Of a DNA stretch of 64,000 bases, positions 35,705 to 49,842 are shown piece after piece. The DNA is from Gammaproteobacteria bacterium LSUCC0096 (GTDB lineage Bacteria; Pseudomonadota; Gammaproteobacteria; Pseudomonadales; Litorivicinaceae), in NCBI GenBank assembly GCA_008087055.1, contig VIEA01000002.1:1-64000 (forward strand). The letters run 5' to 3'. Numbering within the stretch: the first letter of the stretch is position 1; the number at the start of each line of letters is the position of its first letter. Made by a program: the position numbers and the translations under genes. The notes below the pieces were generated by a model. It saw only the letters and a program-made list of their open reading frames with translations, was not told the DNA's origin and did not search any database.

Positions 35705-36475
35705 ATGATTGTTGTAGAAAATTTGCACAAACGCTTCGGCGGTGTTCATGCCGTTAATGGAGCAAGCCTCTCGATTCAGCCAGGGTCTATCACTGGCCTG
35801 ATCGGGCCAAATGGTGCTGGTAAGACAACCTTATTCAACGTCATTGCAGGTTTATATCAACCGACCTCTGGGAAGGTTCTCCTTGATGGAGAAGACATCA
35901 CGGGATTAAAGCCGCACGAACTATTCCACAAAGGTGTGCTACGTACTTTCCAACTTGCCCATGAATTTTCAACACTGACTGTCCGTGACAACCTGATGAT
36001 GGTTCCACCGAACCAGGCAGGTGAAAGTCTATTAAATACTTGGTTTAAACCAGGCCTTGTTAAAGGACACGAAGAAGAAGTTCGAGCGAAGGCTGATGAA
36101 GTTATCCGCTTCCTCGAAATTGAACATGTTGCCAACGAATTCGCTGGCAATCTCTCCGGTGGTCAGAAAAAGTTGCTAGAGCTTGGCCGAACCATGATGG
36201 TCGATGCAAAAATCGTATTTCTTGATGAAGTTGGCGCAGGTGTGAACCGAACGCTACTGCATAAAATTGGCGATGCCATTATCAAGCTAAATGAGGAACG
36301 TAATTACACGTTTTGCCTCATCGAACACGATATGGAATTTGTTGCTCGTCTATGTGATCCAGTGATCTGTATGGCTGAAGGAGCTGTCCTCGCTGAAGGT
36401 ACGATCGATGAGGTCAAAAATAATGAGCAGGTCATTGAGGCCTATCTCGGTACTGGATTGAAACACAAAAAATAA
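35705..36475 (+). CDS. ABC transporter ATP-binding protein, LivG-like
   Basis: 256 residues. Walker A is GLIGPNGAGKTTLF, the signature LSGGQKKLLELGR, the Q-loop and ARTFQ-type segment LRTFQLAHEF, and the switch region LIEHDMEFV. Length and the loop GESLLNTWFKPG fit the LivG type. The Walker B end reads FLDEVGAGVNRTL where family members normally have a Pro and AGLN; the DE pair needed for ATP hydrolysis is kept. It works with the LivF-like ATPase encoded next door. Confidence 0.9.
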   Translation: MIVVENLHKRFGGVHAVNGASLSIQPGSITGLIGPNGAGKTTLFNVIAGLYQPTSGKVLLDGEDITGLKPHELFHKGVLRTFQLAHEFSTLTVRDNLMMVPPNQAGESLLNTWFKPGLVKGHEEEVRAKADEVIRFLEIEHVANEFAGNLSGGQKKLLELGRTMMVDAKIVFLDEVGAGVNRTLLHKIGDAIIKLNEERNYTFCLIEHDMEFVARLCDPVICMAEGAVLAEGTIDEVKNNEQVIEAYLGTGLKHKK

Positions 36476-36476
36476 G

Positions 36477-37181
36477 ATGAGCTTTTTACTTGGTGAACAG
36501 ATGACAGGCGGCTACGGAGCAGCAGATATTTTGCACGATTGCTCTATTGGCGTAGAAAAAGGTGAAATCGCGGTCATTGTTGGACCAAATGGCGCAGGCA
36601 AATCAACTGCAATGAAAGCCGTGTTTGGCATGTTGCCGCTGAGAAAAGGTCGGGTTCTATTTGACGGCGACGACGTGACACAGTTAAAGCCTGAAGAGCG
36701 CGTCGTCAAAGGCATGGGTTTTGTACCGCAAACCCATAACGTTTTTACATCGATGACTGTTGAAGAAAACCTAGAAATGGGGGCGTTCATTCGGACCGAT
36801 TCAATCAGTGATTCGATTGCACAAGTCTATGATCTGTTCCCTATTCTAAAAGAAAAAAGAAAGCAGCCTGCGGGCGAACTTTCAGGCGGCCAGCGCCAGC
36901 AGGTTGCAGTCGGTCGAGCGTTAATGACTCATCCAAAGGTTCTCATGCTTGATGAGCCAACAGCTGGGGTTTCCCCGATTGTGATGGATGAGTTATTCGA
37001 CCGAATCATTGAGATTGCCCGTCTCGATGTCGCCATCTTGATGGTCGAACAAAATGCAAAACAAGCGCTCGAAATCGCAGATAAAGGTTATGTTCTAGTC
37101 CAAGGGCACAACCGATTTACTGATACTGGAGAAGCGCTCTTAGCCAACCCAGAAGTTCGTAAGGCGTTTTTGGGAGGGTAG
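36477..37181 (+). CDS. ABC transporter ATP-binding protein, LivF-like
   Basis: 234 residues, the normal length for LivF. It shows Walker A (IVGPNGAGKSTAM), VPQTHNVFTSMTVEENLEMGAF, signature LSGGQRQQVAVGRALM, Walker B (VLMLDEPTAGVSP) and LMVEQNAKQALEIAD. It forms the heterodimeric ATPase with the LivG-like protein. One base separates it from the upstream stop, and the downstream permease begins directly after its stop, so the four transporter genes form one translational unit. Confidence 0.93.
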   Translation: MSFLLGEQMTGGYGAADILHDCSIGVEKGEIAVIVGPNGAGKSTAMKAVFGMLPLRKGRVLFDGDDVTQLKPEERVVKGMGFVPQTHNVFTSMTVEENLEMGAFIRTDSISDSIAQVYDLFPILKEKRKQPAGELSGGQRQQVAVGRALMTHPKVLMLDEPTAGVSPIVMDELFDRIIEIARLDVAILMVEQNAKQALEIADKGYVLVQGHNRFTDTGEALLANPEVRKAFLGG

Positions 37182-38195
37182 ATGACTGATTTCTTAAACG
37201 CACTCACGCTACTTGGCAATTTCTTAATCATTCCAGGTCTCACCTATGGCTCGCAGCTAGCACTTGGTGCCTTGGGCGTCACATTAGTCTATGGGGTGCT
37301 TCGCTTCTCAAATTTTGGCCACGGCGAGACCATGGCATTTGGAGCAATGGTAACCATCCTAGTCACTTGGGGGCTTCAGTCCGTCGGAATCTCAATCCAA
37401 CCCCTTCCAACCGCTCTATTAGCGATCCCAGTAGGGATCGCGGTCACGGTACTGCTTACGCTACTTCTCGATCGATTTGTGTATCGCTATCATCGGGAGC
37501 GCAAAGCAAATCCTGTGATTTTCTTGATTGTCTCCATTGGCGTGATGTTCTTTTTAGGCGGTCTGATCCGTTTCATTATCGGGCCTGGGGATCAAATTTT
37601 CTTTGATGGCACTCGGTTCATATTGAAGGCGCGAGAGTTCAAACAACTTACCGGGCTCGACGAAGGCCTATCTCTCAAAATGACACAAGCAGTCACCATC
37701 GTTACTGCCGTCATGATTGTTGCTGCCATGTTTTGGTTCTTGAACCATACTCGTACCGGGAAATCGATGCGTGCCTATTCAGATAATGAAAACCTAGCAC
37801 TGCTATCAGGCATCAACCCAGATCGTGTCGTCATGATCACGTGGATCTTAGTTGCGGCGCTGGCAACCATTGCAGGAACACTGTATGGCCTTGATAAGTC
37901 GTTCAAACCGTTTGTATACATGCAACTGCTACTTCCAATCTTTGCATCCGCAATCGTTGGCGGTGTGGGCAATCCTATCGGAGCAATTGCCGGTGGCTAT
38001 GTGATTGCGTTCAGTGAGTTGATCTTGACCTTTGCCTATAAAAAAGTAGTCCTATATTTGGGTCCTGAATCGATGGAAGTCGAATCGCTTGTTCAATTTT
38101 TGGGTACAGACTACAAGATCGCTGTGTCCTTTATCATTTTGGTGATTGTGTTAATTATCAAACCAACCGGTTTATTTAGCGGGAAAACGATCTGA
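37182..38195 (+). CDS. Branched-chain amino acid-type ABC permease, LivH-like
   Basis: 337 residues with about eight membrane segments. YGSQLALGALGVTLVYGVLRFSNFGHG near the start and the coupling region MRAYSDNENLALLSGINPDRVV are typical of LivH/UrtB permeases. It starts directly after the livF-like stop, preceded by GGGAGGG. It ends at the first base of the LivM-like start. It forms half of the membrane channel. Confidence 0.92.
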   Translation: MTDFLNALTLLGNFLIIPGLTYGSQLALGALGVTLVYGVLRFSNFGHGETMAFGAMVTILVTWGLQSVGISIQPLPTALLAIPVGIAVTVLLTLLLDRFVYRYHRERKANPVIFLIVSIGVMFFLGGLIRFIIGPGDQIFFDGTRFILKAREFKQLTGLDEGLSLKMTQAVTIVTAVMIVAAMFWFLNHTRTGKSMRAYSDNENLALLSGINPDRVVMITWILVAALATIAGTLYGLDKSFKPFVYMQLLLPIFASAIVGGVGNPIGAIAGGYVIAFSELILTFAYKKVVLYLGPESMEVESLVQFLGTDYKIAVSFIILVIVLIIKPTGLFSGKTI

Positions 38196-39520
38196 TGCCA
38201 GCGTTCTACCAGCAATACCGTAACCAAATTTTGTTCAGCGTGATGGCTGGGCTGTTGATACTCGTTGCAGTAATCCAAAGCCTATCCGTGTCATTAACGA
38301 TCCTCAATCTCTGTTTAATCAGCGCCATCATGGCGCTAGGCGTGAATATTCAATGGGGATATGCGGGACTATTTAATGTCGGTGTGATGGGGTTTGCCGC
38401 GCTTGGTGGTCTTGCTGGCGTTCTCATCTCAATGCCACCCGTATCTGAAGCATGGCAAGCGGGTGGTTTGGGGATTTTACTTGGGCTTCTTATTACAGTC
38501 GGTACAGTCATCGCTTGTTTGTTCGCTTGGGCTCGCATTTCGCATTTGAAAAAACAGCGCTACTGGGTCATCGCTGCCATCATTATTTCTGGATATGCTC
38601 TGCTCCGCATTTTCTTTGATCCTGGCGTCGATGCGATTGAAGCGATTGATCCTTCTGTCACCGGTTATCTCGGCGGGCTTGGTCTGCCCATTTTAGTTGC
38701 TTGGCCTGTAGGCGCGCTATTTGCCGCAGGGGTCGCATTCGTAATCGGTAAAGTTGCGCTCGGTCTTCGCTCTGACTACTTGGCCATCGCCACCCTTGGG
38801 ATCAGTGAAATCATTATTTTCTTCATCAAAAACGAAGAGTGGCTAACCCGCGGTGTCAAAAACGTGAATGGTTTACCACGGCCTGTCCCATACGAAATCG
38901 ACCTGCAGCAAGCGCAATGGTTTCAAGATTGGGCCATAACCTTCGGTATGCCAGTTGATGACGCTTCTGCTGTATTCGTTAAGATATGTTACGCACTGCT
39001 TTTTATCGCCGTCATAGCGCTTTTGTTGTGGCTGTCCGAAACAGCCCTAAAATCGCCGTGGGGTCGTATGATGCGTGCGATTCGCGACAACGAAACAGCC
39101 GCAGCCGCAATGGGTAAAGATGTCACTTGGCAGCATCTTCGCGTATTTGTTTTGGGGTCTGCCGTCATTGGTCTTGCCGGAGCGATGTTGACCACTCTCG
39201 ATGGTCAGTTCACGCCTGTGGGGTACAACCCGCTGCGCTTTACGTTCTTGATTTGGGTTATGGTGATCATTGGTGGATCAGGTAACAACTGGGGCGCTGT
39301 TCTCGGTGGGTTCTTTATTTGGTTCTTTTGGATCGAGGCAGAACCGATTGGGCTATGGTTAATCGAAACTCTCACCTCAGGAATGGACCCTCAAAGCGCA
39401 GTAAGAGCGCATCTACTCGAGGGTGCAGCGCACATGCGGTTAATGACGGTAGGGATTATCCTGCTACTAACTCTCCGCTATGCACCGGAAGGACTCATCC
39501 CAGAGAAAAAGCGTCTTTAG
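38195..39520 (+). CDS. Branched-chain amino acid-type ABC permease, LivM-like
   Basis: 441 residues with about ten membrane segments. NLCLISAIMALGVNIQWGYAGLFNVGVMGFAALGG and SPWGRMMRAIRDNETAAAAMGKD are LivM landmarks, the latter being the ATPase-coupling loop; APEGLIPEK near the end is also usual. An insertion between the early segments (about residues 100-160) makes it longer than many homologues. It overlaps the livH-like gene by one base and convergently overlaps a small exported-protein gene by 4 bases. Confidence 0.92.
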   Translation: MPAFYQQYRNQILFSVMAGLLILVAVIQSLSVSLTILNLCLISAIMALGVNIQWGYAGLFNVGVMGFAALGGLAGVLISMPPVSEAWQAGGLGILLGLLITVGTVIACLFAWARISHLKKQRYWVIAAIIISGYALLRIFFDPGVDAIEAIDPSVTGYLGGLGLPILVAWPVGALFAAGVAFVIGKVALGLRSDYLAIATLGISEIIIFFIKNEEWLTRGVKNVNGLPRPVPYEIDLQQAQWFQDWAITFGMPVDDASAVFVKICYALLFIAVIALLLWLSETALKSPWGRMMRAIRDNETAAAAMGKDVTWQHLRVFVLGSAVIGLAGAMLTTLDGQFTPVGYNPLRFTFLIWVMVIIGGSGNNWGAVLGGFFIWFFWIEAEPIGLWLIETLTSGMDPQSAVRAHLLEGAAHMRLMTVGIILLLTLRYAPEGLIPEKKRL

Positions 39521-39996
39521 TTGAGAGTGAACCAATCACCAGGTTCACCTCGCCGCTCACGCTGACCGGAAACTACAGCACCATGCTTGATAAGCACCAT
39601 ACCCGGGCCTGATACACGACCAACTGTTCCCTCAATCTTAGTTTCACCAGACAACGCCTGAATTCGGTCAACCATCCCACGTACTTCGACTAAACCACCT
39701 TGGTTCACCACTTCCTGTGCCATACCGCGGACAGTAAGCTTTGAGGAATCATCAACTGTGACAGTCCAACGAACGGTCCCCGTGAGGATTAACTCGGTTG
39801 ACGGCTCAAGGGTCACATGATCAAAAATACCAACAGCCAATGTTGGCTCTCGGACGATTAAATCCTGAGTCCAATCTGTGCGAGGTATTACCTCAGTTGT
39901 TGTGCATCCAGACTGAGATGTCTGGCCATTCACTTCACAAGCTAAAACAGGTTGTGATAGCCCTAGACATAAAACGGGTAGACATAGCGAACGCAT
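39517..39996 (-). CDS. Small exported beta-rich protein of unknown function
   Basis: 159 residues. A signal peptide (RSLCLPVLCLGLSQPVLA) ends before CEVNGQ, which could also be a lipobox-like site, although LACE lacks the usual LxxC spacing certainty. The mature part alternates short hydrophobic strands and turns (LTVRGMAQEVVNQGGLVEVRGMVDRIQALSGETKIEGTV is spread over 39660-39780), suggesting a small beta-helix or bactofilin-like surface. I do not recognise a family. It is the last gene of the aminotransferase/TRAP operon, 10 bases after the CoA-transferase, so it may be co-expressed. Confidence 0.6.
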   Translation of the reverse strand: MRSLCLPVLCLGLSQPVLACEVNGQTSQSGCTTTEVIPRTDWTQDLIVREPTLAVGIFDHVTLEPSTELILTGTVRWTVTVDDSSKLTVRGMAQEVVNQGGLVEVRGMVDRIQALSGETKIEGTVGRVSGPGMVLIKHGAVVSGQRERRGEPGDWFTLN

Positions 39997-40006
39997 CGAT
40001 TGGCCT

Positions 40007-41215
40007 CTACGCGGAATGAATCACTCCACGAGTATACAGTGCTTCGATCTCGATATCTGAATACCCGAGATCTTTAAGCACTTGATGGGAATGCTGACCA
40101 TGTGTTGGGGGCGGCCTCGAAGAGACCGGCTCTGCACCATGAAATTTAACAGCCATACCAAGCCCTTTCACAGAACCCACCCGGTCATGTTCGGTTTGAA
40201 CCACCATCTCCCGGGCAATGGCCTGAGGATGCTCAAGCATCTCTCCTATCGATAAAATTGGGCCTGCAGGAACCCCGGCTTGATCGAGCTGTTCAAGCCA
40301 CTCCTCAGATGGATGCTTTTGAAAATATCCATTCAATACGGCGACGAGTTCAGGGAGGTTCGCCATCCGGTCCGCATTGGATGAAAAGCGCGAATCATCA
40401 TTGAGTTCGGGTGCACCAATCACATCCAAGAGCCGTAACCAATTTCTCTGATTTGCAGCGCCTATATTGATATAGCCATCAGCTGTCTGGAAAGCTTGAT
40501 AAGGCGCATTCAGCGGATGTGCTGAACCAAGTGCTTGAGGCGAGACACCGGTCGCTAGAGCGATAGCACTTTGCCAATAGGTATGCGTAATCCCTGCCTC
40601 AAATAGTGAGGTATCAACACGTGTACCAAGACCAGTTTTTTGCTTGCCCGCATACGCTGCGGCCGCACCCATCGCTGCAAGGATGCCCGCTGTGATATCA
40701 GTCACTGGTGCGCCGACTTTCACAGGTCCATCATCTTGGCCAGGCCCTGTAATACTCATCAAACCAGAGGCACCCTGCGCAACAAGATCAAAGCCCGCAC
40801 GTTCACGGTAAGGACCTGTTCGCCCATATCCTGAGATTTCGACGTAAATAAGACCTGGGTTAATCGCTTTTAACGCGTCATACGACAAGCCTAGACGTTC
40901 CATCGTATCGTGGCGAAAGTTCTCAATGACGCAGTCAGCATCTTTCAAAAGTTCGGTGAGAATTTTTTTACCCTCATCCGATTTTAAGTCGAGGGCCATT
41001 CCGCGTTTGTTGCGATTCATCATTAAAAACGCGGCAGACTCGCCTTGAATCTGCGGAGGAACCATGCGCCGCGAGTCATCACCACCCTCGATTTTTTCCA
41101 CCTTGATGACATCAGCACCCATATCAGCCAACATCATTCCACACAATGGACCCGCCATGATGTGGGCGAGCTCAATCACGCGCATGCCCTCGAGTGGTCT
41201 TGGCTGCTGACTCAT
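40007..41215 (-). CDS. Class III CoA-transferase (CaiB/BaiF family)
   Basis: 402 residues from ATG 41215, with GGAG 6 bases upstream and an ATGA overlap with the previous stop. MRVIELAHIMAGPLCGMMLADMGADVIKVE is the classic N-terminus. RNKRGMALDLKSDEGK and VIENFRHDTMERLGLSYD carry the family Asp/Arg region. INPGLIYVEISGYGRTGPY is also typical. Such enzymes move CoA between carboxylic acids. The substrate is unknown; with the neighbouring hydratase it may activate an acid imported by the TRAP system. Confidence 0.92.
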   Translation of the reverse strand: MSQQPRPLEGMRVIELAHIMAGPLCGMMLADMGADVIKVEKIEGGDDSRRMVPPQIQGESAAFLMMNRNKRGMALDLKSDEGKKILTELLKDADCVIENFRHDTMERLGLSYDALKAINPGLIYVEISGYGRTGPYRERAGFDLVAQGASGLMSITGPGQDDGPVKVGAPVTDITAGILAAMGAAAAYAGKQKTGLGTRVDTSLFEAGITHTYWQSAIALATGVSPQALGSAHPLNAPYQAFQTADGYINIGAANQRNWLRLLDVIGAPELNDDSRFSSNADRMANLPELVAVLNGYFQKHPSEEWLEQLDQAGVPAGPILSIGEMLEHPQAIAREMVVQTEHDRVGSVKGLGMAVKFHGAEPVSSRPPPTHGQHSHQVLKDLGYSDIEIEALYTRGVIHSA

Positions 41216-41976
41216 CGACCACTCCAATTAGCCTTACGTTTCGCGAAAAAAGCATCGATACCTTCAGCAAAATCATCACTCAAATAACAACGCTGAATGA
41301 GATCTGTATCTTCAGGCGTTGCACGTTGAGCCAATCGATTTAACCCATCACGCGTTGCTGAGACCGTTAGTGGAGCAAGCGTTAACAAATGAGCTGATAG
41401 CTCTCGAGCACGCCGATCGCACAAATCAGCTGTGTCTAACACTTCACTGATAAAGCCCGACTCAACCAACGGTGATATCGGCAGAAATTCTGCTGTTAGC
41501 AACAGGTAGCGTGTTCGTGATTCGCCCAATAAGTGAACTAGCCTATTGAGATTCGCTATCGATAAGCAGTTCCCTAACGTCCGTGCGATTGGCATCCCAA
41601 ACTTCGTATCGTGGGTTCCCAATCGAATATCGGCAGCCGCAGCAATGGCAGCTCCGCCACCGGCAACAATCCCATGCAATGATGCGATGACTGGAACAGA
41701 AGCTGTTTGAACGGCATCAATCACTCGACCAATCATTGCTTCGTAATCGATCGCGTCTTGAGCCGAATGAAAATCTTTGAAATTAGAAATGTCAGTACCA
41801 GAAGCGAAAGCTTTCTCGCCCTCTGCGGTTAACACGATGACACGCGCATCACCAGGGTCACGACACAGATTCTCTAGTGCTTGATACATCTCAAAGGTCA
41901 GAGAATTCCGTGACTCTGGTCGCGTCAGGCGATATTCAGCGATACCGCCTTCATGGGTAATCGTGTAATCGCCCAC
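41212..41976 (-). CDS. Enoyl-CoA hydratase/isomerase family protein
   Basis: 254 residues of the crotonase fold: AFASGTDISNFKDF and the oxyanion-hole loop SLHGIVAGGGAAIAAAADIRLGT, followed by KFGMPIARTLGNCLS. It probably hydrates or isomerises a CoA thioester. The usual catalytic Glu positions of classic hydratases (E in the PE..LG region) are not clear here: the segment reads FGMPIARTLG, so a different crotonase reaction is possible. It is translationally coupled to the CoA-transferase (ATGA) and starts 1 base after dctM's stop. Confidence 0.88.
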   Translation of the reverse strand: MGDYTITHEGGIAEYRLTRPESRNSLTFEMYQALENLCRDPGDARVIVLTAEGEKAFASGTDISNFKDFHSAQDAIDYEAMIGRVIDAVQTASVPVIASLHGIVAGGGAAIAAAADIRLGTHDTKFGMPIARTLGNCLSIANLNRLVHLLGESRTRYLLLTAEFLPISPLVESGFISEVLDTADLCDRRARELSAHLLTLAPLTVSATRDGLNRLAQRATPEDTDLIQRCYLSDDFAEGIDAFFAKRKANWSGR

Positions 41977-41977
41977 G

Positions 41978-43261
41978 TTATGACCTGTAAATCACATCGA
42001 CCAGATACATCGGTACATCGGGTACATAAGTGCAGAGCATCAGTACCGCGAACAATACCGCGATAAAGTAGATATTGATCTTAGACACATCCCAAATATT
42101 CGCGCGAGCGACCGCACAAGACGTGATCAATACACTCGCAACCGGCGGCGTCTGCTGACCTAAAGCTAAGTTTAACGTCACGACTAAACCAAAATGGATT
42201 GGATCAATACCGGCAGCTTGGATGAGTGGGATCACGATCGGAACAACCAAAATGATAGCTGCTGCCGAATGCAGGAAGAACCCGATAACCAAGAAGAAGA
42301 CGTTCAGGATTGCGAGAATAACCCACTGATTGTTGGTGATATCGAGAATCCAGCGAGCAAAATCCTGAGGGATTTGAGCTCGTGTTAGAAAGCCACCCAT
42401 CACCACCGATGCTGCGACCAACAGCATCACAACAGCTGTCTGCACACCACCATCAATCATTGCGCGCTTCAGATGCCCGAAATCCATTTTCGAATACCAT
42501 GCACTCACAACAAGTGCTGCAACAACAGCAAGGCCAGCTGCTTCTGTCGCGGTAACAAATCCACCAAAGATGCCGCCTAAGATCACCACTGGCAGCGTAA
42601 ATGCAGGCAACGCATCGACTAATGTTTTCCACAAGCGCCGAAATTCAAAAGCTTCTTCAGTTGGCAGGTTGTATTTGCGTGCGAAGTAATACGCCATGCC
42701 CATCAATCCAAATGCACCCAATAAGCCTGGGATGATCCCTGCAACGAACAATTGCTCGACCGAAGTCCCTGCAGATGTCGCATACAAAATCATCGGAATA
42801 GAGGGCGGGATAATGATTGCAAGGGACGCTGATGATGAAGTCACCGCAGCCGCAAGCGGCCCTGAATAACCCCGCTTTTTCATCTGGGGGATCAATACGG
42901 AGCCAAGTGCAGCAACATCAGCCACGGCAGAGCCCGAAATTTCAGCAAAGAACAAGCTGACACCGATATTGACCATCGCAAGACCGCCACGCACAAAACC
43001 GATAATGGCATTTACAAAGTTGATCAACTTATCTGTGATGCCGCCGGCGTTCATGATGGCGCCAGCCAAAACAAACATCGGAATGGCAATCAAAGAAAAC
43101 TTTGTCGATCCATCGTACATATCGAGAGCAAGTGTCACGATGCTATCGAGCCCTTCACTAACAGCTAGGCCAAAAATCGCTGAGACGGCGAGTCCAACCG
43201 CGATCGGGACGTTCAAACAAATCAGCGCGAGCAAGATCAAGAACATAATAAAAACGATCAT
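41978..43261 (-). CDS. TRAP transporter large permease (DctM family)
   Basis: 427 residues with about twelve hydrophobic segments, the normal size of a DctM subunit. Landmarks are LDMYDGSTKFSLIAIPMFVLAG, FAEISGSAVADVAALGSVLIPQM, TSSSASLAIIIPPSIPMILYA and LNLALGQQTPPVASVL. It is the Na+-coupled transport subunit, working with the small permease and binding protein encoded upstream. It overlaps dctQ by 4 bases. Confidence 0.95.
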   Translation of the reverse strand: MIVFIMFLILLALICLNVPIAVGLAVSAIFGLAVSEGLDSIVTLALDMYDGSTKFSLIAIPMFVLAGAIMNAGGITDKLINFVNAIIGFVRGGLAMVNIGVSLFFAEISGSAVADVAALGSVLIPQMKKRGYSGPLAAAVTSSSASLAIIIPPSIPMILYATSAGTSVEQLFVAGIIPGLLGAFGLMGMAYYFARKYNLPTEEAFEFRRLWKTLVDALPAFTLPVVILGGIFGGFVTATEAAGLAVVAALVVSAWYSKMDFGHLKRAMIDGGVQTAVVMLLVAASVVMGGFLTRAQIPQDFARWILDITNNQWVILAILNVFFLVIGFFLHSAAAIILVVPIVIPLIQAAGIDPIHFGLVVTLNLALGQQTPPVASVLITSCAVARANIWDVSKINIYFIAVLFAVLMLCTYVPDVPMYLVDVIYRS

Positions 43262-43800
43262 GATTTGCCTCCTGCTTTCGCGAGTTCTGTTTCGACTTCT
43301 TCCTCGATTTCGGCGTGCTCAAGTGAGATTCCAGCACAAGTTTTCTTGTAGTAATCGGGGAAACTCAGCAGTTCGCAAATGACAAACAGAGTCGCGCCAA
43401 TGGGTATCACCGATTGTGTTAGTTGAATCGGAATCCAAGTTAAAGACACCAAGTATTCGCCTTCGAGGATCACAAGAACTTCATACCCTGTATATGCGAG
43501 TAGTGCGAAAAAACCGACAACCACTGCCTCAGCAAAAATCACCGAATACGCTCTGAAAGGCATTGGGATTGCCAGAAGAACCGTATCAAATCCAATGTGG
43601 CGACGATGCAATGCTGCATACGCACCACCATAGTAAGTTAGCCAGGCCAGCTGAATCGCTGCGATCTCGTCATACCATGAGACCGAATTTCCTGTGATGC
43701 GGGCAAGCACCGCGAAGATAACCACACCGGTGAGCGCGATCATCTGAAATAAAATGAACCACACAAGTAGCTGATCGACAGCTTTAGTGAACCGATTCAC
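43258..43800 (-). CDS. TRAP transporter small permease (DctQ family)
   Basis: 180 residues with four predicted membrane segments, as usual for DctQ. It contains VSWYDEIAAIQLAWLTYYGGAYAALHRRHIGFD, matching the family's WxxE...GxxxAxxxxxHI pattern. A charged cytoplasmic C-terminal tail rich in Glu follows. It bridges the large permease to the binding protein. It is separated from dctP by a hairpin. Confidence 0.93.
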   Translation of the reverse strand: MNRFTKAVDQLLVWFILFQMIALTGVVIFAVLARITGNSVSWYDEIAAIQLAWLTYYGGAYAALHRRHIGFDTVLLAIPMPFRAYSVIFAEAVVVGFFALLAYTGYEVLVILEGEYLVSLTWIPIQLTQSVIPIGATLFVICELLSFPDYYKKTCAGISLEHAEIEEEVETELAKAGGKS

Positions 43801-43825
43801 ACCGTACTCCTGACTCGTTTAAGTA

Positions 43826-43845
43826 AGCGGCCCGATTGGGCCGCT
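43826..43845 (-). terminator. GC-rich hairpin between dctP and dctQ
   Basis: AGCGGCCC GATT GGGCCGCT is a perfect 8-base-pair stem with a tetraloop. On the minus strand it is followed by TACTTAAAC, not a T run, so it is more likely an mRNA-stabilising or attenuating hairpin that raises the amount of binding protein. Confidence 0.6.
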
Positions 43846-43866
43846 ATTTGTGTTTTAAGCGCTCGA

Positions 43867-44847
43867 TTAGTTGGCGAGGCTTTGGACTGTTTTAATCAAT
43901 TCAGCGCCGCCCTCGACTGAGGCTGCAAACTCGTCATAAATTGGCTTCGATGCTTTGATGAACGCTGCGTTATCAGCTGTATTCACCTGGACACCTGCTG
44001 CTTTGATCACATCCAAAAGCTCTGTTTCAAGTGCTGCGGCCTTTCGATATACAAAGGTTTGCGTTGACGCTGCACAATCCGACAAAACTTTACGAACATC
44101 GGCTGGGTGCTTCTCGAAGTGCTTCTTCGAAGACAAGATGTAGGCTGGTGTATACACATGGCCTGTGATCGATAAGTACTTTTGCACCTCTTGGAATTTC
44201 GCTGAGGCGATCTGAGCATATGGATTTTCTTGACCATCCATCACGCCCGTTTTCAATGCAGTGAATACATCTGAGAACGCCATTGGCGTTGGATTCGCGC
44301 CATACAGCTTGAACATTTTCACACGCCAAGCGCCGTTCGGTGTTCTCAACTTAACTCCTTGCAAATCTGCAGGGACGTTAATCGGACGCGTGTTATTGGT
44401 AATATGACGGAAGCCGTTTTCGAAATATCCGAGAATGTGATATCCCTTTGCTTGAGCAGCCGCCTGGAACGTGCCACCGAGCTTCTCTTGAACACGCTTC
44501 ATGTGGTCACGATCCTTGATGATGTATGGCATCTCAAACACGCCAAACTCATCAGAAACTGAAGACATCACCGACGATGGCAACGCAAAGTCAACCTGAC
44601 CAAGCTTCAGTTTTTGCAGTAACTCTTTGTCCTTACCCAACTGCGAGGATCCGAACGTTTGAACTTCGATCTTTCCATTGGATTCATCATTAACACACTG
44701 TGCGTACGCATTCACGCTTGCCTCAAAGAGAGACCCAGGTGCCCCCACGTGTCCGAATTTCAAAGTGACATCTGCTGCCTGAACCTGCGCCGTAACCGCC
44801 GCCGATAGAACAGCTGCTGATGCTGCTAGTGAACGTAAGACTTTCAT
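43867..44847 (-). CDS. TRAP transporter substrate-binding protein (DctP family)
   Basis: 326 residues with a signal peptide (VLRSLAASAAVLSAAVTAQVQA). The mature protein begins ADVTLKFGHVGAPGS. It contains GYFENGFRHITNNTRPI and GVKLRTPNGAWRVKMFKLYGANPTPM, which includes the conserved Arg that binds the substrate carboxylate. It binds an organic acid in the periplasm. A strong GGAGG site precedes the ATG. The exact acid cannot be read from sequence; the aminotransferase and dehydrogenase neighbours point to a 2-hydroxy or 2-oxo acid. Confidence 0.92.
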   Translation of the reverse strand: MKVLRSLAASAAVLSAAVTAQVQAADVTLKFGHVGAPGSLFEASVNAYAQCVNDESNGKIEVQTFGSSQLGKDKELLQKLKLGQVDFALPSSVMSSVSDEFGVFEMPYIIKDRDHMKRVQEKLGGTFQAAAQAKGYHILGYFENGFRHITNNTRPINVPADLQGVKLRTPNGAWRVKMFKLYGANPTPMAFSDVFTALKTGVMDGQENPYAQIASAKFQEVQKYLSITGHVYTPAYILSSKKHFEKHPADVRKVLSDCAASTQTFVYRKAAALETELLDVIKAAGVQVNTADNAAFIKASKPIYDEFAASVEGGAELIKTVQSLAN

Positions 44848-44888
44848 AGTTTCCTCCGATTTATTTTTATCCTTGGAGTGAGTTTTAA

Positions 44889-46052
44889 TTACCGCATCAG
44901 AACCTGCATTGCAGCCTCTACTCCCCCTGCCTTGTGCGGCACACCGGCAAGGCCCAAACCCATTTCAACACCGCTTAGTGTTCCCATGAGTGTGAGTTCG
45001 TTGAAGTCACCCAGGTGGCCGATTCGGAAAGCTTTACCTTTTAACTTCCCAAGACCTGTGCCAAGTGACATATCAAATCGCTCCAAAATTATTTTACGAA
45101 CAGCGTCCGCATCATGCCCTTCTGGTATCATGATTCCAGTCAACACATTCGAATGCTCTTTTGGATTCTGACAAACCGTCTCTAGCCCCCAGACCGAAAC
45201 CGCTTCGCGGCAAGCATCTGCAAGACGCTGATGTCGGGCAAAAACGTTATCTAGCCCCTCTTCTTCAAGCATTGCGATTGCTTCTTTGAGGCCATAGAGC
45301 AATGTTGTAGCCGGGGTGTAAGGGAAATACCCAGTCGCATTCGAAGCAAGCATCTCCTGCCAGTCCCAATACGATCGTTTGGATCCACCTTTCTTGGCGG
45401 CTTCGATTGCTCTGTCTGACAGTGCATTGAAGCCCAATCCAGGCGGCATCATTAAGCCTTTCTGCGACCCTGACACAGTCACATCGGCACCCCATTTATC
45501 ATGCTCGTAATCGACCGACGCTAAACCCGAAATGCTATCCACTAGGAGCAGTGCAGGATGGCCAGTGACATCAATTGCTTTTCTTACAGACGCTATATCC
45601 GATGTGATTCCGCAACTCGTCTCGTGATGAACACAGCATACTGCTTTGATTAAGTGGTTTGAGTCTTGGCGCAACCGCTCTTCGATTCGATTGGCATCGA
45701 CACCGTTTCTCCAATCGCCCGCTAAAAACTCAGTTTCAATACCCAGACGATCTGCCATTTGTTTCCAAAGGGTGGCGAATTGTCCTGTTTCGTAGAATAA
45801 AACTTGGTCACCGGCCTCTAATACATTCGATAGACAGGCCTCCCAAGCCCCTGTGCCAGAGCTCGGATAAATCACAACAGGCGATTTGGTTTTGAAGATG
45901 CGCTGCATCCCCGACAGAACCGACAGACCAAGGTCTGCAAAATCTGGCCCGCGATGGTCGATCACGGCCGCATCAATAGCGCGAGAGATTCTGTCAGGTA
46001 CCGGGCTCGGTCCTGGGATTTGTAGAAAGTGTCGTCCTGCCCTGTATGCCAT
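44889..46052 (-). CDS. Class V aminotransferase, serine--glyoxylate aminotransferase-like
   Basis: 387 residues from ATG 46052 (AAGGA 8 bases upstream). QIPGPSPVPDRI, YPSSGTGAWEACLSN and the PLP lysine in VSGSQKGLMMPPG match SgaA-type serine-glyoxylate aminotransferases, as do GYFPYTPATTLLYGL and RIGHLGDFNE. The family also includes aspartate-glyoxylate and related enzymes, so the amino donor is uncertain; glyoxylate is the likely acceptor. It is the first gene of the minus-strand operon, 41 bases before dctP, and diverges from the YdiJ-like dehydrogenase. Confidence 0.9.
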   Translation of the reverse strand: MAYRAGRHFLQIPGPSPVPDRISRAIDAAVIDHRGPDFADLGLSVLSGMQRIFKTKSPVVIYPSSGTGAWEACLSNVLEAGDQVLFYETGQFATLWKQMADRLGIETEFLAGDWRNGVDANRIEERLRQDSNHLIKAVCCVHHETSCGITSDIASVRKAIDVTGHPALLLVDSISGLASVDYEHDKWGADVTVSGSQKGLMMPPGLGFNALSDRAIEAAKKGGSKRSYWDWQEMLASNATGYFPYTPATTLLYGLKEAIAMLEEEGLDNVFARHQRLADACREAVSVWGLETVCQNPKEHSNVLTGIMIPEGHDADAVRKIILERFDMSLGTGLGKLKGKAFRIGHLGDFNELTLMGTLSGVEMGLGLAGVPHKAGGVEAAMQVLMR

Positions 46053-46126
46053 GGGTGGAATCCTTATTGTTATCTCGTTGTTCGAAACCACAGGCTTATG
46101 TTGCAAGCCTATCTCAAAACCGAATA

Positions 46127-46136
46127 ATATGCATAT
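46127..46136. promoter_or_regulatory. Palindrome in the divergent promoter region
   Basis: ATATGCATAT is a perfect 10-base palindrome 3 bases upstream of a second, longer palindrome. It may be a low-affinity half of a regulator-binding region or simply an AT-rich promoter element. Confidence 0.35.
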
Positions 46137-46138
46137 CG

Positions 46139-46156
46139 TATTTTGTATGCAAAATA
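46139..46156. promoter_or_regulatory. Probable GntR/FCD operator
   Basis: TATTTTGTATGCAAAATA is an 18-base palindrome with one central mismatch pair, with the core TTGTATGCAA. FCD-type GntR regulators commonly bind TTGTATACAA-like sites. It is 20 bases upstream of the dehydrogenase start in the 123-base gap shared with the aminotransferase operon, and a FCD-type GntR gene lies just downstream. Autoregulation of the whole locus is the simplest reading. Confidence 0.6.
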
Positions 46157-46175
46157 AAAACTAAAAAGAAAAGCG

Positions 46176-49175
46176 ATGAACACACTCTCAATCCCGTCGG
46201 TGAATATGAACAGCTATCGATCACAACCACGACAGTTAGATGCTGGCGAGTCGCGCAAGCTTAAGCAGCGCATCGAAAGTGACACGCAATGCGAAGTCCT
46301 GTTTTCGCGGTTTGATCGTGGCCGTTATGCAACAGATGCAAGCCATTACCAGATTTTTCCTCTTGGAGTTGTCATTCCTAAAACAAGGAACGACTTACGC
46401 GTGCTTATTGAGATCGCAAGAGAATTTGGCATTTGTCTCACAGGCCGCGGCGGTGGAACAAGCCAAAACGGTCAAACCATTAATCAGTCCCTAGTCATCG
46501 ACTACTCAAAGTATCTGAATAATCTTGTTCATATCGACAAGGACAATCGTATTTGTCGCGTTGAGCCCGGAATCGTACTCGATCATCTCAATGCGAAACT
46601 AAAATCAACCGGCCTTTGGTATCCGGTCGATGTGTCCACTTCAAGTCGAGCAACCCTCGGTGGAATGACTGGGAACAATAGTTGTGGATCCCGAAGCATC
46701 CGATATGGAACGATGCGGGATAATGTGCAAAGCGTCCGCGCGCTTCTAGCCGACGGCTCTATCGCCCATTGGCACGAATTGTCAGCCGAGGATCAAAAAC
46801 TATCTGCAACCGATTTGGCAGCGCGGTCTGATTTGTTAAGTCGCCTTCTGTGCCTTGGCGCTACTCATAAAGATTTAATTGAATCGCGGCTTCCGCAACT
46901 CATGCGTCGTGTTGGCGGCTACAACATCGATGCTTTGATCCCAGACGGCAACGGTGGATCAGGGTGTTGGCCGGGTACAAGAAGTAATCCAGCGCATCTA
47001 TTCGTGGGTAGCGAAGGAACACTGGGACTGTTCGAAGAACTCGAACTTAAACTGTCGCCAACTCCAAAAAATAAAACCTTGGGGGTTTGTCACTTCCAAA
47101 CCTTCTATGCAGCCATGGATGCCGCGCAACACCTTGTGACATTAGGCCCATCGGCAGTCGAACTAGTTGACCGTACAATGATTGACCTGTCACGCGACAT
47201 CCCAATGTTTGCAAAGACTGTGAATCTGTTCGTGAAAGGAGAGCCTGACGCTCTTCTGCTAGTCGAATTTTCAGAAGAAGACCAACACGAAAACATCCGA
47301 CGTCTTGATCAGCTCGAACAGATGATGGCAGATCTTGGGCAACCAGATTCCGTTATCAGAGCGGAAGATCTGGCATTCCAAAAACAAATTTGGGAAGTCA
47401 GAAAACAAGGTCTTAACATCATGATGTCGATGCGCGGCGATGCCAAACCGATATCGATCGTTGAGGACTGCGCTGTAGAACTCAAAGACCTTGCCGAATA
47501 TACAAGACGCTTAACAGAAGTGTTTGAAAAGCATGGGACCAGCGGTTGCTGGTATGCACACGCATCTGTCGGAACATTGCATGTTCGCCCTGTTCTCAAC
47601 TTAAAACAGAAACTTGGTGCCGAAGCATTGCGGGCGGTAGCCGAAGAAGCATTTGAAATGGTCCGTGAATACAAAGGATCACATTCGGGCGAACACGGCG
47701 ATGGGATTGCTCGATCTGAGTTCCATAAAGACATGTTTGGCCAGGATATGGTGCATCTTTTTGAGCAGGTCAAACAGATGCTCGATCCCCAAGGAATCTT
47801 TAATCCTAACAAAATCGTCAATCCGCCAAAACATGATGACCGAACACTATTCCGCTTTGCCCCGGAGTATGAAGAGCGAGTTGCAATTCACGGCTCATTC
47901 AAGACTGGGTTCGACTGGTCTGGTTGGGGAAGTTTTAGTAGCGCAGTTGAGATGTGTAACAACAATGGCGCGTGTAGAAAAACTGATCCTGGAGTCATGT
48001 GCCCATCCTATCGAGTGACCAAAAATGAGAAAGATTTAGTCCGGGGTCGCGCAAATACGCTTCGCCTGGCCTTATCAGGCCAATTAGGACCCAATGCTGT
48101 GACATCTGAAGAGATGATGGAGACCATGAAACTCTGCGTAGGCTGTAAAGCCTGCCAGAACGAATGTCCGACCAGCGTGGATATGGCCAAGATGAAAACT
48201 GAGGTCCTTTATCAACGCAGTAAACGTTTTGGTATTGGTCTCCGCGAGAAACTTATCGCTTACATGCCCCACTACTCGCCATGGCTGAAACAAGTGCCTT
48301 GGCTAGCCAATCTCAGAGATCAAATTCCAGGCCTTCCTTGGCTCACAGAGAAGGCTTTGGGTTTAGCAAAGGATCGACAACTCCCGGTATGGGATAAAGC
48401 CTATCGAGCGCCCGCTATCGAGCCCCAAACTGACAAGCCCCCAGTCATTTTATTCGGCGATACCTTCAACAGGTCCTTCGAAACTAAGAACCTTTACGCA
48501 GCCCGCGAAGTACTCGAATCGATGGGATATGAGGTCATCGAACCTAAACCTGATAATCGATCTGTTTGTTGTGGCCGAACGTTTCTTGCTGCTGGTCTTG
48601 TTGACCAAGCAAAAAAAGAAGCTGCACGCTTTGTGGAAACAGTTATGCCTTGGGTTCGACAAGGCATCCCTGTGGTCGGACTTGAACCCTCTTGTCTTTT
48701 AACTTTGCGTGACGAGTTTCAGGTCTTGCTCCCAGGTGACGATGCGAAGCAACTTGCAGAGCATGCATTTTTATTTGAGGAATTTATTGAAAAAGAGCTC
48801 AGTGCTGAAAGGTCGCACTTAGATCTTATCGAAGCCCAGTGCTCAGAAGTTTTGGTGCATGGACATTGTCACCAAAAAGCTGCACGCGCAATGGGGCCGG
48901 TGGAAGCGCTTCTCAAGCGTATTCCAAACCTCAAAGTCTCGATCATTGAGACCTCTTGCTGCGGGATGGCTGGACACTTCGGTTATCAAAAGGAAACTCT
49001 GAAAGAGTCATTAGCGATGGCGGAACTTAATTTACTACCTGCCGTTCGCGAGGCCAGTCCAACAGCACGGATTGTTGCTGATGGTACAAGCTGTCGACAT
49101 CAGATTGCTGACAACACATCTCGTCAGGCAGAGCATGTCGCGGTACTCTTAGCGGACCATCTAAGGAAGGATTAG
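46176..49175 (+). CDS. FAD-linked oxidase / Fe-S dehydrogenase fusion (YdiJ-like)
   Basis: 999 residues. The N-terminal half is a PCMH-type FAD domain (CLTGRGGGTSQNGQTIN, DVSTSSRATLGGMTGNNSCGSRSIRYG) plus a FAD-oxidase C-terminal domain (HSGEHGDGIARSEFH). The second half holds Fe-S motifs (NNNGACRKTDPGVMCPSYR; CVGCKACQNECP) and CCG-type motifs (VCCGRTF; SCCGMAGHFGY). The arrangement and length match E. coli YdiJ (1018 residues), a D-2-hydroxyglutarate dehydrogenase; relatives oxidise D-lactate or glycolate. It likely feeds electrons to the respiratory chain. The gntR gene starts 4 bases after its stop. Substrate here is an inference. Confidence 0.88.
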   Translation: MNTLSIPSVNMNSYRSQPRQLDAGESRKLKQRIESDTQCEVLFSRFDRGRYATDASHYQIFPLGVVIPKTRNDLRVLIEIAREFGICLTGRGGGTSQNGQTINQSLVIDYSKYLNNLVHIDKDNRICRVEPGIVLDHLNAKLKSTGLWYPVDVSTSSRATLGGMTGNNSCGSRSIRYGTMRDNVQSVRALLADGSIAHWHELSAEDQKLSATDLAARSDLLSRLLCLGATHKDLIESRLPQLMRRVGGYNIDALIPDGNGGSGCWPGTRSNPAHLFVGSEGTLGLFEELELKLSPTPKNKTLGVCHFQTFYAAMDAAQHLVTLGPSAVELVDRTMIDLSRDIPMFAKTVNLFVKGEPDALLLVEFSEEDQHENIRRLDQLEQMMADLGQPDSVIRAEDLAFQKQIWEVRKQGLNIMMSMRGDAKPISIVEDCAVELKDLAEYTRRLTEVFEKHGTSGCWYAHASVGTLHVRPVLNLKQKLGAEALRAVAEEAFEMVREYKGSHSGEHGDGIARSEFHKDMFGQDMVHLFEQVKQMLDPQGIFNPNKIVNPPKHDDRTLFRFAPEYEERVAIHGSFKTGFDWSGWGSFSSAVEMCNNNGACRKTDPGVMCPSYRVTKNEKDLVRGRANTLRLALSGQLGPNAVTSEEMMETMKLCVGCKACQNECPTSVDMAKMKTEVLYQRSKRFGIGLREKLIAYMPHYSPWLKQVPWLANLRDQIPGLPWLTEKALGLAKDRQLPVWDKAYRAPAIEPQTDKPPVILFGDTFNRSFETKNLYAAREVLESMGYEVIEPKPDNRSVCCGRTFLAAGLVDQAKKEAARFVETVMPWVRQGIPVVGLEPSCLLTLRDEFQVLLPGDDAKQLAEHAFLFEEFIEKELSAERSHLDLIEAQCSEVLVHGHCHQKAARAMGPVEALLKRIPNLKVSIIETSCCGMAGHFGYQKETLKESLAMAELNLLPAVREASPTARIVADGTSCRHQIADNTSRQAEHVAVLLADHLRKD

Positions 49176-49179
49176 TCCG

Positions 49180-49842
49180 TTGAATTCGAGTGTCATTGTC
49201 AGAGCACCCTTACACGTTCAAGTCGCAGAGCGGCTTCGCTTATTAATAGACTCAGGTGAATTAGCACCCGGTACTCGCCTCAATGAAATCGAGCTCTGCA
49301 ATACGATGGGTGTAAGCCGCACACCGCTGCGTGAAGCAATCCGCTCACTAGCCACCGAGGGACTCATTGAGCTCCAACCAAACCGCGGAGCTATCGTGAG
49401 CATCGTCAGCCAAGAAGATGTCACTGAGATCCTTCCAATCATGGCATCACTCGAAGGCTTAGGTGGTCGATTGGCTGCAATGCACATGGATCAAAGCAAG
49501 ATCGCGCAAGTTCGAAAAATCCATAACCAAATGATCTCTCATTACAAAAATAATGAGGTAGCCGAATATTTTGAAACAAATCGCCTCATCCACGAATTAA
49601 TTACCGAAGGAAGTGGTAACCAAACGCTTGTGGAGACGATTAACAGCCTATCTGCAAAAGTGCGGCGCGCTCGATTTACAGCGCAAATGACAAAAGAAAG
49701 CTGGGCTACGGCTGTCTCTGAGCATGAGGAAATGATTGCAGCGCTTGAAGCCCAAGACCCAGATCGCCTCGAGGCCATTCTTGTTCAACACGTTGAGACG
49801 AAACGAGCCACAATTCTCGGGTCGATAGAACAAAACCAATAA
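49180..49842 (+). CDS. GntR-family transcriptional regulator (FCD subfamily)
   Basis: 220 residues from TTG 49180, preceded by AAGGA. The N-terminal winged helix (LHVQVAERLRLLIDSGELAPGTRLNEIELCNTMGVSRTPLREAIRSL over about residues 11-57) and PNRGAIVSIVSQEDV are typical of GntR. The C-terminal helical FCD domain contains the Asp/His-type ligand region (NRLIHELITEGSGNQTL, SEHEEMIAAL). It probably senses an organic acid. It forms an operon with the YdiJ-like gene, and its likely operator is at 46139-46156. It converges on yjbQ. Confidence 0.93.
   Translation: MNSSVIVRAPLHVQVAERLRLLIDSGELAPGTRLNEIELCNTMGVSRTPLREAIRSLATEGLIELQPNRGAIVSIVSQEDVTEILPIMASLEGLGGRLAAMHMDQSKIAQVRKIHNQMISHYKNNEVAEYFETNRLIHELITEGSGNQTLVETINSLSAKVRRARFTAQMTKESWATAVSEHEEMIAALEAQDPDRLEAILVQHVETKRATILGSIEQNQ

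Follow-up and report, generated by a model that had tools for sequence, protein, structure and literature searches.

A conserved TRAP importer, flavoenzyme and aminotransferase gene cluster in Gammaproteobacteria bacterium LSUCC0096 and its possible role in 2-hydroxy acid catabolism

Two divergent operons at positions 40007–49842 of a 64,000-nucleotide stretch of Gammaproteobacteria bacterium LSUCC0096 (contig VIEA01000002.1, positions 1 to 64,000; hereafter the window) encode a coenzyme A (CoA)-transferase, a crotonase-fold protein, a tripartite ATP-independent periplasmic (TRAP) importer and an aminotransferase on the one side, and a YdiJ-like dehydrogenase together with a GntR-type regulator on the other. 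This gene set is real and conserved and is not a chance neighbourhood. The reading that we prefer, while granting it only close to an even chance, is that of a module under common control for the breakdown of a small D-(2R)-2-hydroxy acid, which would probably be neither glycolate nor D-2-hydroxyglutarate. Judged from sequence, the system would work like a glycolate-type 2-hydroxy acid operon, and by the tests made none of its proteins classifies as a member of GlcD, YdiJ, BhcA or enoyl-CoA hydratase. The features of the locus are as follows:

40007–41227, minus strand: class III (CaiB/BaiF) CoA-transferase (CoA_transf_3, 426 bits)
41212–41976, minus strand: crotonase-fold protein, PRK06144 subfamily (ECH_1, 111 bits)
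41978–43261, minus strand: DctM, TRAP large permease (DctM, 383 bits)
43258–43800, minus strand: DctQ, TRAP small permease (DctQ, 69 bits)
43867–44847, minus strand: DctP, TRAP solute-binding protein (DctP, 289 bits)
44889–46052 (listed open reading frame to 46106), minus strand: class V aminotransferase, BhcA relative (Aminotran_5, 84 bits)
46139–46156, no strand: palindrome TATTTTGTATGCAAAATA between the divergent operons, presumed GntR operator
46176–49175, plus strand: YdiJ-like dehydrogenase with flavin adenine dinucleotide (FAD) and 4Fe-4S domains (FAD-oxidase_C, 171 bits; FAD_binding_4, 126 bits)
49180–49842, plus strand: GntR/FCD regulator (GntR, 68 bits; FCD, 90 bits)

Each named gene is an open frame at the place claimed for it and has a Pfam match above cut-off, which bears out the two divergent operons of the original prediction. 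The spacing is operon-like: the CoA-transferase and crotonase genes overlap, as do those for DctM and DctQ, a single base separates the crotonase gene from that for DctM, and four bases lie between the dehydrogenase and GntR genes. Compared with six distinct close relatives (L020, L025, L026 and L107–L110, with L110 being the L026 contig; L numbers denote loci and G numbers genomes), the TTG start listed for the aminotransferase at 46106 adds 18 codons, and the start appears best placed at the ATG at 46052. The genome assembly comprises 1.94 Mb in 4 contigs and is 99.4% complete; by the named relatives of the dehydrogenase gene, i.e., an Oceanospirillales metagenome-assembled genome (MAG; 97%), isolate HIMB30 (88%) and Litoricola single-cell genomes (87%), its source is a Litorivicinus/Litoricola-type gammaproteobacterium.

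Conservation was assessed in two samples. The first was selected by likeness to the window dehydrogenase (of 135 stretches that match a search pattern, 101 encode relatives, and the 80 best of these form the sample); neighbouring genes in the relatives were called by tblastn, with identity limits set by us for these 80 loci at 57% for the aminotransferase, 43% for the CoA-transferase, 45% for DctP and 38% and 45% for two types of crotonase. The full set of eight genes (CoA-transferase, crotonase, DctP, DctQ, DctM, aminotransferase, dehydrogenase and GntR) is present in 22 of the 80 loci, and the gene order of the window is kept in 21 of these, the exception being L091, in which the GntR gene precedes the dehydrogenase gene. 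Counted singly, the aminotransferase gene is found in 70 loci (and in 43 of the 46 that span at least 20 kb), the GntR gene in 43, the CoA-transferase gene in 26 and the DctP gene in 25; in the three DctP loci without CoA-transferase and crotonase genes (L019, L022, L032) the contig ends inside the TRAP genes. Joint occurrences of the genes are found in records named as Gamma-, Alpha- and Betaproteobacteria.

The second sample was centred on the aminotransferase and comprised 398 evenly drawn Pseudomonadota genomes, 49 of which, including the source genome, match at E 1e-120 or better. Excluding the source genome, as well as G073 and G155 that were already covered as L106 and L105, 48 stretches from 46 genomes were read, and four of them (L220–L223) were dropped with aminotransferases of less than 57% identity, leaving 44 loci. 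The dehydrogenase gene lies within 7 kb in 37 of these; a GntR gene is present in 33, genes of the tripartite tricarboxylate transporter (TTT) type in 20, a crotonase gene in 17, a GlcG-like gene in 16, a CoA-transferase gene in 10, a major facilitator superfamily gene in seven and a window-type TRAP importer in five. Four of these five TRAP loci also carry CoA-transferase and crotonase genes, while the fifth, L208 (5.9–13.6 kb), combines a TRAP importer with a DctP 80% identical to that of the window with aminotransferase, dehydrogenase, GntR and GlcG-like genes. Every cluster gene except that for GntR occurs at 5629–14627 of L211, which belongs to a single-contig genome of 1.21 Mb, has 32% GC in the stretch and features the other type of crotonase. 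Overall, the aminotransferase is encoded at an identity of at least 58% in 45 of the 398 sampled genomes, own genome included. The core of the system is thus the pair of aminotransferase and dehydrogenase, the transporters are exchangeable, and CoA-transferase and crotonase often accompany the TRAP version without being essential to it. Both of their genes are missing from L208 and from L121, a Tateyamaria plasmid, so that the system can do without the CoA branch. The original prediction had tied CoA-transferase and crotonase to the system, and this holds for most loci, usually together with the TRAP genes, but not for these two.

Several arrangements deviate from that of the window. In genome G130 (L103 and L224) the TRAP, crotonase, CoA-transferase and GntR genes lie about 40 kb from the aminotransferase/dehydrogenase pair on the same contig, so that the module can split. 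A Litorivicinus relative (L028, the contig of L107) has a decaying copy, in which DctP, DctQ, CoA-transferase and GntR were not found, DctM is reduced to 99 codons and the operator is degenerate. Tandem duplicate aminotransferase genes lie near the dehydrogenase gene in L187, L189 and L192, which stem from large genomes of one genus, and in Comamonadaceae or beta-proteobacterial MAGs (L076, L077, L080) the aminotransferase and dehydrogenase genes are accompanied by genes for a type II haloacid dehalogenase and a GloB-like hydrolase.

The palindrome TATTTTGTATGCAAAATA between the operons is the sole such site in the genome at up to two mismatches. A degenerate form of the pattern gives one match in the window against 0.16 expected, and as 16 of 100 shuffles also give one, this count is weak on its own. 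Among Litorivicinus-type loci (17 scanned, 14 distinct, since L107, L109 and L110 are contigs of L028, L023 and L026), an extended palindrome is present in 12 of the 14; of the remaining two, L028 keeps a degenerate site only, and L030 has a three-mismatch site next to an inter-operon insertion. Outside this group, TGNATNCA occurs in 13 of 23 aminotransferase/dehydrogenase intergenic regions of loci with a GntR gene, compared with 1.03 in shuffles (largest value 7); it was not found in the other ten, some of which are perhaps shortened by the choice of start codon. It occurs in one of 14 such regions without a GntR gene, and that locus, L034, ends before the position at which its near relative L033 carries GntR. 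As the palindrome is found just once in the genome and again in relatives, joint regulation of the two operons is likely. Independent regulation, which the original prediction had named as an outcome that would speak against it, is not what the sequence indicates, with one inter-operon palindrome that is unique in the genome, kept in relatives and enriched where GntR is present. A chance adjacency of two unrelated operons could draw on the many loci with aminotransferase and dehydrogenase genes that have neither CoA-transferase nor crotonase genes; the joint occurrence of all eight genes in conserved order around a single operator makes it very improbable.

The source genome encodes three FAD-oxidase_C proteins: GlcD, YdiJ and the window enzyme. 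GlcD (L112) is adjoined by GlcE and GlcF, and the three are 64, 44 and 57% identical to E. coli GlcD, GlcE and GlcF, respectively, in the order GlcD, GlcE, GlcF. The true YdiJ (L111) is 46% identical to E. coli YdiJ and passes the equivalog model NF049975 with 1396 bits (cut-off 1350); a gene for the large subunit of RuBisCO lies about 4 kb from it (L111 and L099; 862–870 kb of contig C1 of this genome). The window dehydrogenase shares 26.6% identity with E. coli YdiJ, 22.6% with E. coli GlcD and 23–27% with the GlcD and YdiJ of its own genome. It falls short of NF049975 (517.6 bits) as well as of the GlcD model TIGR00387 (195.7 bits, cut-off 567.9), and apart from its own FeS part no separate GlcE or GlcF was found in the 64-kb window at 1e-4. 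By these comparisons it is assigned to a clade of its own, the third in this genome next to those of GlcD and YdiJ.

The catalytic set of FAD-dependent D-2-hydroxy acid dehydrogenases of the GlcD/LDHD/D2HGDH fold is kept in the window enzyme as R409, H462, H469, E506 and H507, in line with the one Arg, two His, Glu and His described as shared by mouse LDHD and human D-2-HGDH in two reports (PMC10589216, PMC7801405). Four residues past the Arg, in the side pocket, the window enzyme has L413 where GlcD has Phe341, LDHD Trp351 and D-2-HGDH Thr390 according to the same reports, in which Tyr351 and Phe341 are said to restrict GlcD to glycolate (PMC10589216, PMC7801405). By its spacing from the two His, Y460 corresponds to Tyr432 in D-2-HGDH and R471 to Asn443, and E. 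coli YdiJ shares the Arg. The pocket leans against a GlcD-like type and would allow a polar or acidic far end. An interpretation of S427 as the replacement of human Lys401 was dropped, as the alignments do not settle the position. E. coli YdiJ is described as strict for D-2-hydroxyglutarate in PMC9504171; turnover of this compound, one of the substrates originally put forward, was rejected for the window enzyme, as a separate YdiJ above cut-off is encoded elsewhere in its genome. D-lactate and D-malate, put forward alongside it, keep the status of candidates.

The best NCBIfam model for the aminotransferase is BhcA (NF045640), with 429.5 bits against a cut-off of 650 and 39.5% identity to BhcA; the annotated BhcA of L121 scores 729 bits. 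K216, the pyridoxal phosphate lysine, and R361 align with BhcA; class V glyoxylate-linked aminotransferases are characterized by such a lysine, a carboxylate-binding Arg and the use of glyoxylate. Among the class V loci of the source genome (ten returned of eleven matches), BhcA matches the window aminotransferase at 1e-94, followed by L143 at 4e-14 (25% over 281 residues) and by others at 0.01 or worse. Genes for GlcC, GlcD and GlcE adjoin the cluster in L105, L106 and a Halomonas plasmid (L122), the last of which also carries GlcF and GlcG genes; bhcRABCD lies beside the same type of TRAP importer (DctP 70%) in L121, and bhcR, bhcA and bhcB beside the cluster in L084. The closeness in sequence of the aminotransferase to BhcA, together with the genes of glycolate oxidase or of the β-hydroxyaspartate cycle that adjoin the cluster in several genomes, makes a link of the cluster to glyoxylate/glycine likely, in support of the glyoxylate-type aminotransferase originally proposed. 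A role in purine or ureidoglycolate metabolism was rejected, PucG and ureidoglycine-glyoxylate aminotransferase chains matching at 9e-36 and 1e-32, respectively, versus 5e-104 for 6pk1. The aminotransferase loci on the plasmids L131–L133 contain amidase, fumarylacetoacetate (FAA)-hydrolase or 2-keto-4-pentenoate hydratase genes, in addition to racemase genes in L131 and L132 and a urate hydroxylase gene in L133.

Glycolate itself is a possible but doubtful substrate. It would be imported by the TRAP system and oxidized by the YdiJ-like protein as a second glycolate dehydrogenase, the aminotransferase would form glycine, and the CoA branch, where present, would dispose of a by-product such as oxalate. 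Consistent with this are the GlcG-like genes near the aminotransferase gene in the 16 of 44 loci, the neighbouring GlcCDE genes in L105, L106 and L122 and β-hydroxyaspartate cycle genes in L121 and L084, the position of a GlcG-like gene directly next to that for DctM in the CoA-free L121 and L208, the affinity of the CoA-transferase to the oxalate CoA-transferase YfdE, its closest match among three E. coli proteins compared, and RuBisCO in the genome, which could supply glycolate. On the other hand, L105, L106 and L122 hold both GlcD/E and the YdiJ-like gene in one neighbourhood, Phe341 of GlcD is a Leu in the window enzyme, and the nearest solved importers serve larger acids. Glycolate is doubtful because the same genome has canonical GlcDEF and a true YdiJ, and neither of these two clades includes the window enzyme. 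Salvage of photorespiratory glycolate was rejected as the only role, as GlcDEF is present alongside RuBisCO. Of the originally proposed sequence of uptake, oxidation and transamination of a 2-hydroxy acid, one import-and-oxidation system with a glyoxylate-linked aminotransferase stands, and glycolate as its example is weakened by GlcDEF and YdiJ elsewhere in the genome.

DctP, DctQ and DctM are all present and identify the importer as a member of the TRAP family. The best solved chains for DctP at the profile level are 4nq8 (246 bits) and 4p9k/4pak (217 bits), of which 4nq8 and 4pak have pantoate as ligand and 4p9k has D-erythronate. In the alignment DctP has Ser and Met at the positions of a Glu and an Arg that bind the sugar part in sialic-acid proteins. 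R147, R168 and N208 are invariant in 11 aligned rows and correspond to the two conserved Arg and the Asn that hold the carboxylate in TRAP binding proteins according to PMC11668362, in which related structures carry pantoate or erythronate and most ligands are described as co-purified. The next plasmid-borne relatives of DctP (46–50%) are adjoined by denD, otnK and pdxA in L135 and by pdxA in L136 and Pasteurella L137, while L134 has no telling gene alongside. Overall, the closest resemblance of the importer, a weak one, is to proteins that handle larger hydroxy acids.

A C4 dicarboxylic 2-hydroxy acid of the tartrate or D-malate type, the 2-oxo product of which would be transaminated to 3-hydroxyaspartate or aspartate and then converted, via BhcC-type aldolases, to glycine and glyoxylate, is an improbable substrate, behind glycolate in our estimate. 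R471 and Y460 in the distal pocket would suit it, the aminotransferase is nearest to the aspartate:glyoxylate enzyme BhcA, and the Caballeronia clusters L119 and L130 each contain an annotated DSD1-family gene, a homologue of which is found in L129. The source genome has a lone gene for a BhcC-like 3-hydroxyaspartate aldolase (L152, 12379–13518, C1) that is 56% identical to the Tateyamaria protein; it lies on another contig than the cluster and stays below cut-off (603 versus 690 bits). No other bhc genes were found within 20 kb around it, a genome-wide search for bhcB and bhcD not being made, and none of bhcB, bhcC and bhcD was found in the 64-kb window at 1e-4. Aminotransferase and BhcC-like genes co-occur in 11 of the 398 genomes (hypergeometric 1.4e-4; 10 of 397 and 4.6e-4 without the source genome), a statistic that ignores relatedness; in six of the 11 the BhcC-like protein is at 50% identity or less, and the aminotransferase of G250, another of the 11 genomes to be qualified, is among those dropped elsewhere for low identity. 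Moreover, no second carboxylate site was identified in DctP.

The CoA-transferase matches its Pfam family with 426 bits over 366 of 366 positions, and D177 aligns with the Asp of Frc, YfdE and CaiB, which places it in class III; the catalytic Asp of this class is Asp169 in Frc. Its identity amounts to 36.5% with E. coli YfdE and 25% with CaiB. The crotonase passes the cut-off of PRK06144 (292.7 versus 272 bits). Crotonase (enoyl-CoA hydratase) activity depends on two catalytic glutamates; A110 and I130 take both positions in the window protein, the glutamates are also missing from the nine other window-type sequences aligned, and a motif PIARTLGNC (residues 129–137) is present in all ten. Because both catalytic glutamates are replaced, the label 'enoyl-CoA hydratase' is probably wrong. 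A different crotonase lies beside the same kind of CoA-transferase in L031, L040, L119, L129, L178, L190 and L211, and in the aligned sequences of this other type (L031, L033, L119) one of the two glutamates is conserved. In L121, where CoA-transferase and crotonase are both missing, a malonyl-CoA synthase is annotated. In our reading, the branch would perform a CoA step on an acid, and any of several enzymes would be able to initiate it; as the original prediction remarked, such an addition is not known from glycolate pathways. A second TRAP operon in the source genome (L152, 529–6323; about 975.5–981.3 kb of C1) includes genes for a class III CoA-transferase and an HMG-CoA-lyase-family protein (323 bits, cut-off 246) and lies beside a GntR-like gene, i.e., the same design with a different lyase.

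A sulfonate route from sulfolactate via sulfopyruvate to cysteate has a few loci in its favour: TauE genes flank the aminotransferase/dehydrogenase genes in seven Rhodobacterales-type loci, and SauS/SauT-like and TTT genes are found in several (L083, L084, L090, L098, each with two TauE genes), the SauS of L083 reaching 655 bits at a cut-off of 600. Such neighbours were seen, however, only in loci without a window-type TRAP importer. In the source genome the best Xsc match scores 307 bits against a cut-off of 676, and there is no match to PF04295, the family of SuyB (CuyA and ComDE were not searched for). On these grounds the route was rejected as highly unlikely for this genome.

In the module that we prefer, the TRAP importer would take up the acid, presumably a C3–C4 compound resembling erythronate or glycerate, and the FAD/FeS enzyme with its conserved catalytic residues would oxidize it to the 2-oxo acid and pass electrons to the respiratory chain. 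The aminotransferase may swap an amino group between this 2-oxo acid and the glyoxylate/glycine pair, as homology and neighbouring genes suggest. In most TRAP versions the CoA-transferase would load a carboxylate of the substrate or of a product with CoA, and the crotonase, devoid of the hydratase glutamates, could catalyze a non-hydratase step, e.g., a decarboxylation, isomerization or cleavage. GntR would control both operons from the one palindrome, and the substrate or the 2-oxo acid formed from it would relieve this control. A bolder version, which we consider rather unlikely, holds that this is a 2-hydroxy acid pathway not described so far, widespread among Pseudomonadota and also present in the 1.2-Mb genome, in which the CoA-transferase and the non-hydratase crotonase (or the second, unrelated crotonase) perform a new CoA-dependent step on a C3–C4 hydroxy or oxo acid feeding glyoxylate/glycine. 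It carries lower weight because TRAP importer, aminotransferase and dehydrogenase run without CoA-transferase and crotonase in L121 and L208.

A number of observations weigh against a module for a small acid other than glycolate. The GlcG-like genes fit glycolate equally well and adjoin the DctM gene in L121 and L208, the very loci with TRAP importer, aminotransferase and dehydrogenase but without the CoA genes. Seven of the 44 aminotransferase loci have no dehydrogenase gene within 7 kb, and on the three plasmids L131–L133 the aminotransferase gene sits in hydantoin/purine-type loci. For the importer, sialic-acid binding chains score 216 bits compared with 217 for 4p9k. The pocket residues of the dehydrogenase are read from alignments of 23–27% identity, in which S427 faces Tyr351 of GlcD in one case and Ser365 of LDHD in another, and the counterpart of human Lys401 is not fixed, K424 being near enough to take this place. 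Finally, R471 and Y460 might suit an acid with a second carboxylate.

Many marine bacterial TRAP importers are without known substrate. Here one importer is tied to an enzyme set, one regulator and one operator, so that a few binding and enzyme tests could identify the substrate, and the spread of the aminotransferase through 45 of 398 genomes together with the persistence of every gene except that for GntR in a single-contig 1.2-Mb genome suggests a common compound. Two likely misannotations are exposed, namely that of the crotonase as 'enoyl-CoA hydratase' and that of the flavoenzyme as 'D-2-hydroxyglutarate dehydrogenase'. Our literature searches found no paper describing the cluster, which titles and the beginnings of abstracts did not name; TRAP, dicarboxylate and CoA-transferase do not occur in the main text of PMC8269220.

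The left boundary originally placed at 39517 moves to 40007, where the gene block starts. A small open reading frame at 39517–39996 is excluded from the cluster because it matches no Pfam or NCBIfam family at the limits applied and because the search for homologues yielded just a single relative (L014, L026 and L110 being the same contig). It has a signal-like start, and its end overlaps that of a convergent ATP-binding cassette (ABC) permease gene by four bases. This gene is part of a set for an ABC importer at 35705–39520, of which two ATPases resemble the Liv and Urt families while staying below both cut-offs, and the two permeases have no NCBIfam match at 1e-40.

Among known systems, the E. 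coli glc operon (glcCDEFGBA) resembles the window cluster in D-2-hydroxy acid oxidation, predicted for the window, by a flavoenzyme of the GlcD fold, in its GntR/FCD-type regulator and in the GlcG-like neighbour found in many relatives of the cluster. The window differs in its single fused FAD/FeS chain of another clade, a TRAP importer in place of GlcA, an aminotransferase, usually CoA-transferase and crotonase, and the lack of a malate synthase gene. With the β-hydroxyaspartate cycle (bhcABCD, bhcR) it shares an aminotransferase closest to BhcA among NCBIfam models, and the two clusters adjoin in L121 and L084; however, that aminotransferase, at 39.5% identity, stays under the 650-bit cut-off, and bhcB, bhcC and bhcD are unmatched in the window at 1e-4. 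E. coli YdiJ has the same domain order as the window dehydrogenase (FAD_binding_4, FAD-oxidase_C, 4Fe-4S, CCG), whereas identity is 26.6% and the score 518 of 1350 bits. CaiB and CaiD represent a comparable pairing of a class III CoA-transferase with a crotonase, but the window crotonase, 29% identical to CaiD, is without the glutamates that CaiD and PaaF both keep. The D-erythronate-type TRAP locus L135 (denD, otnK, pdxA) has different catabolic enzymes, and residues 33–35 of DctP read HVG versus ISA; the two DctP proteins nevertheless agree in 47% of positions in the alignment (49.5% in tblastn), in the WRV motif and in the carboxylate-binding residues.

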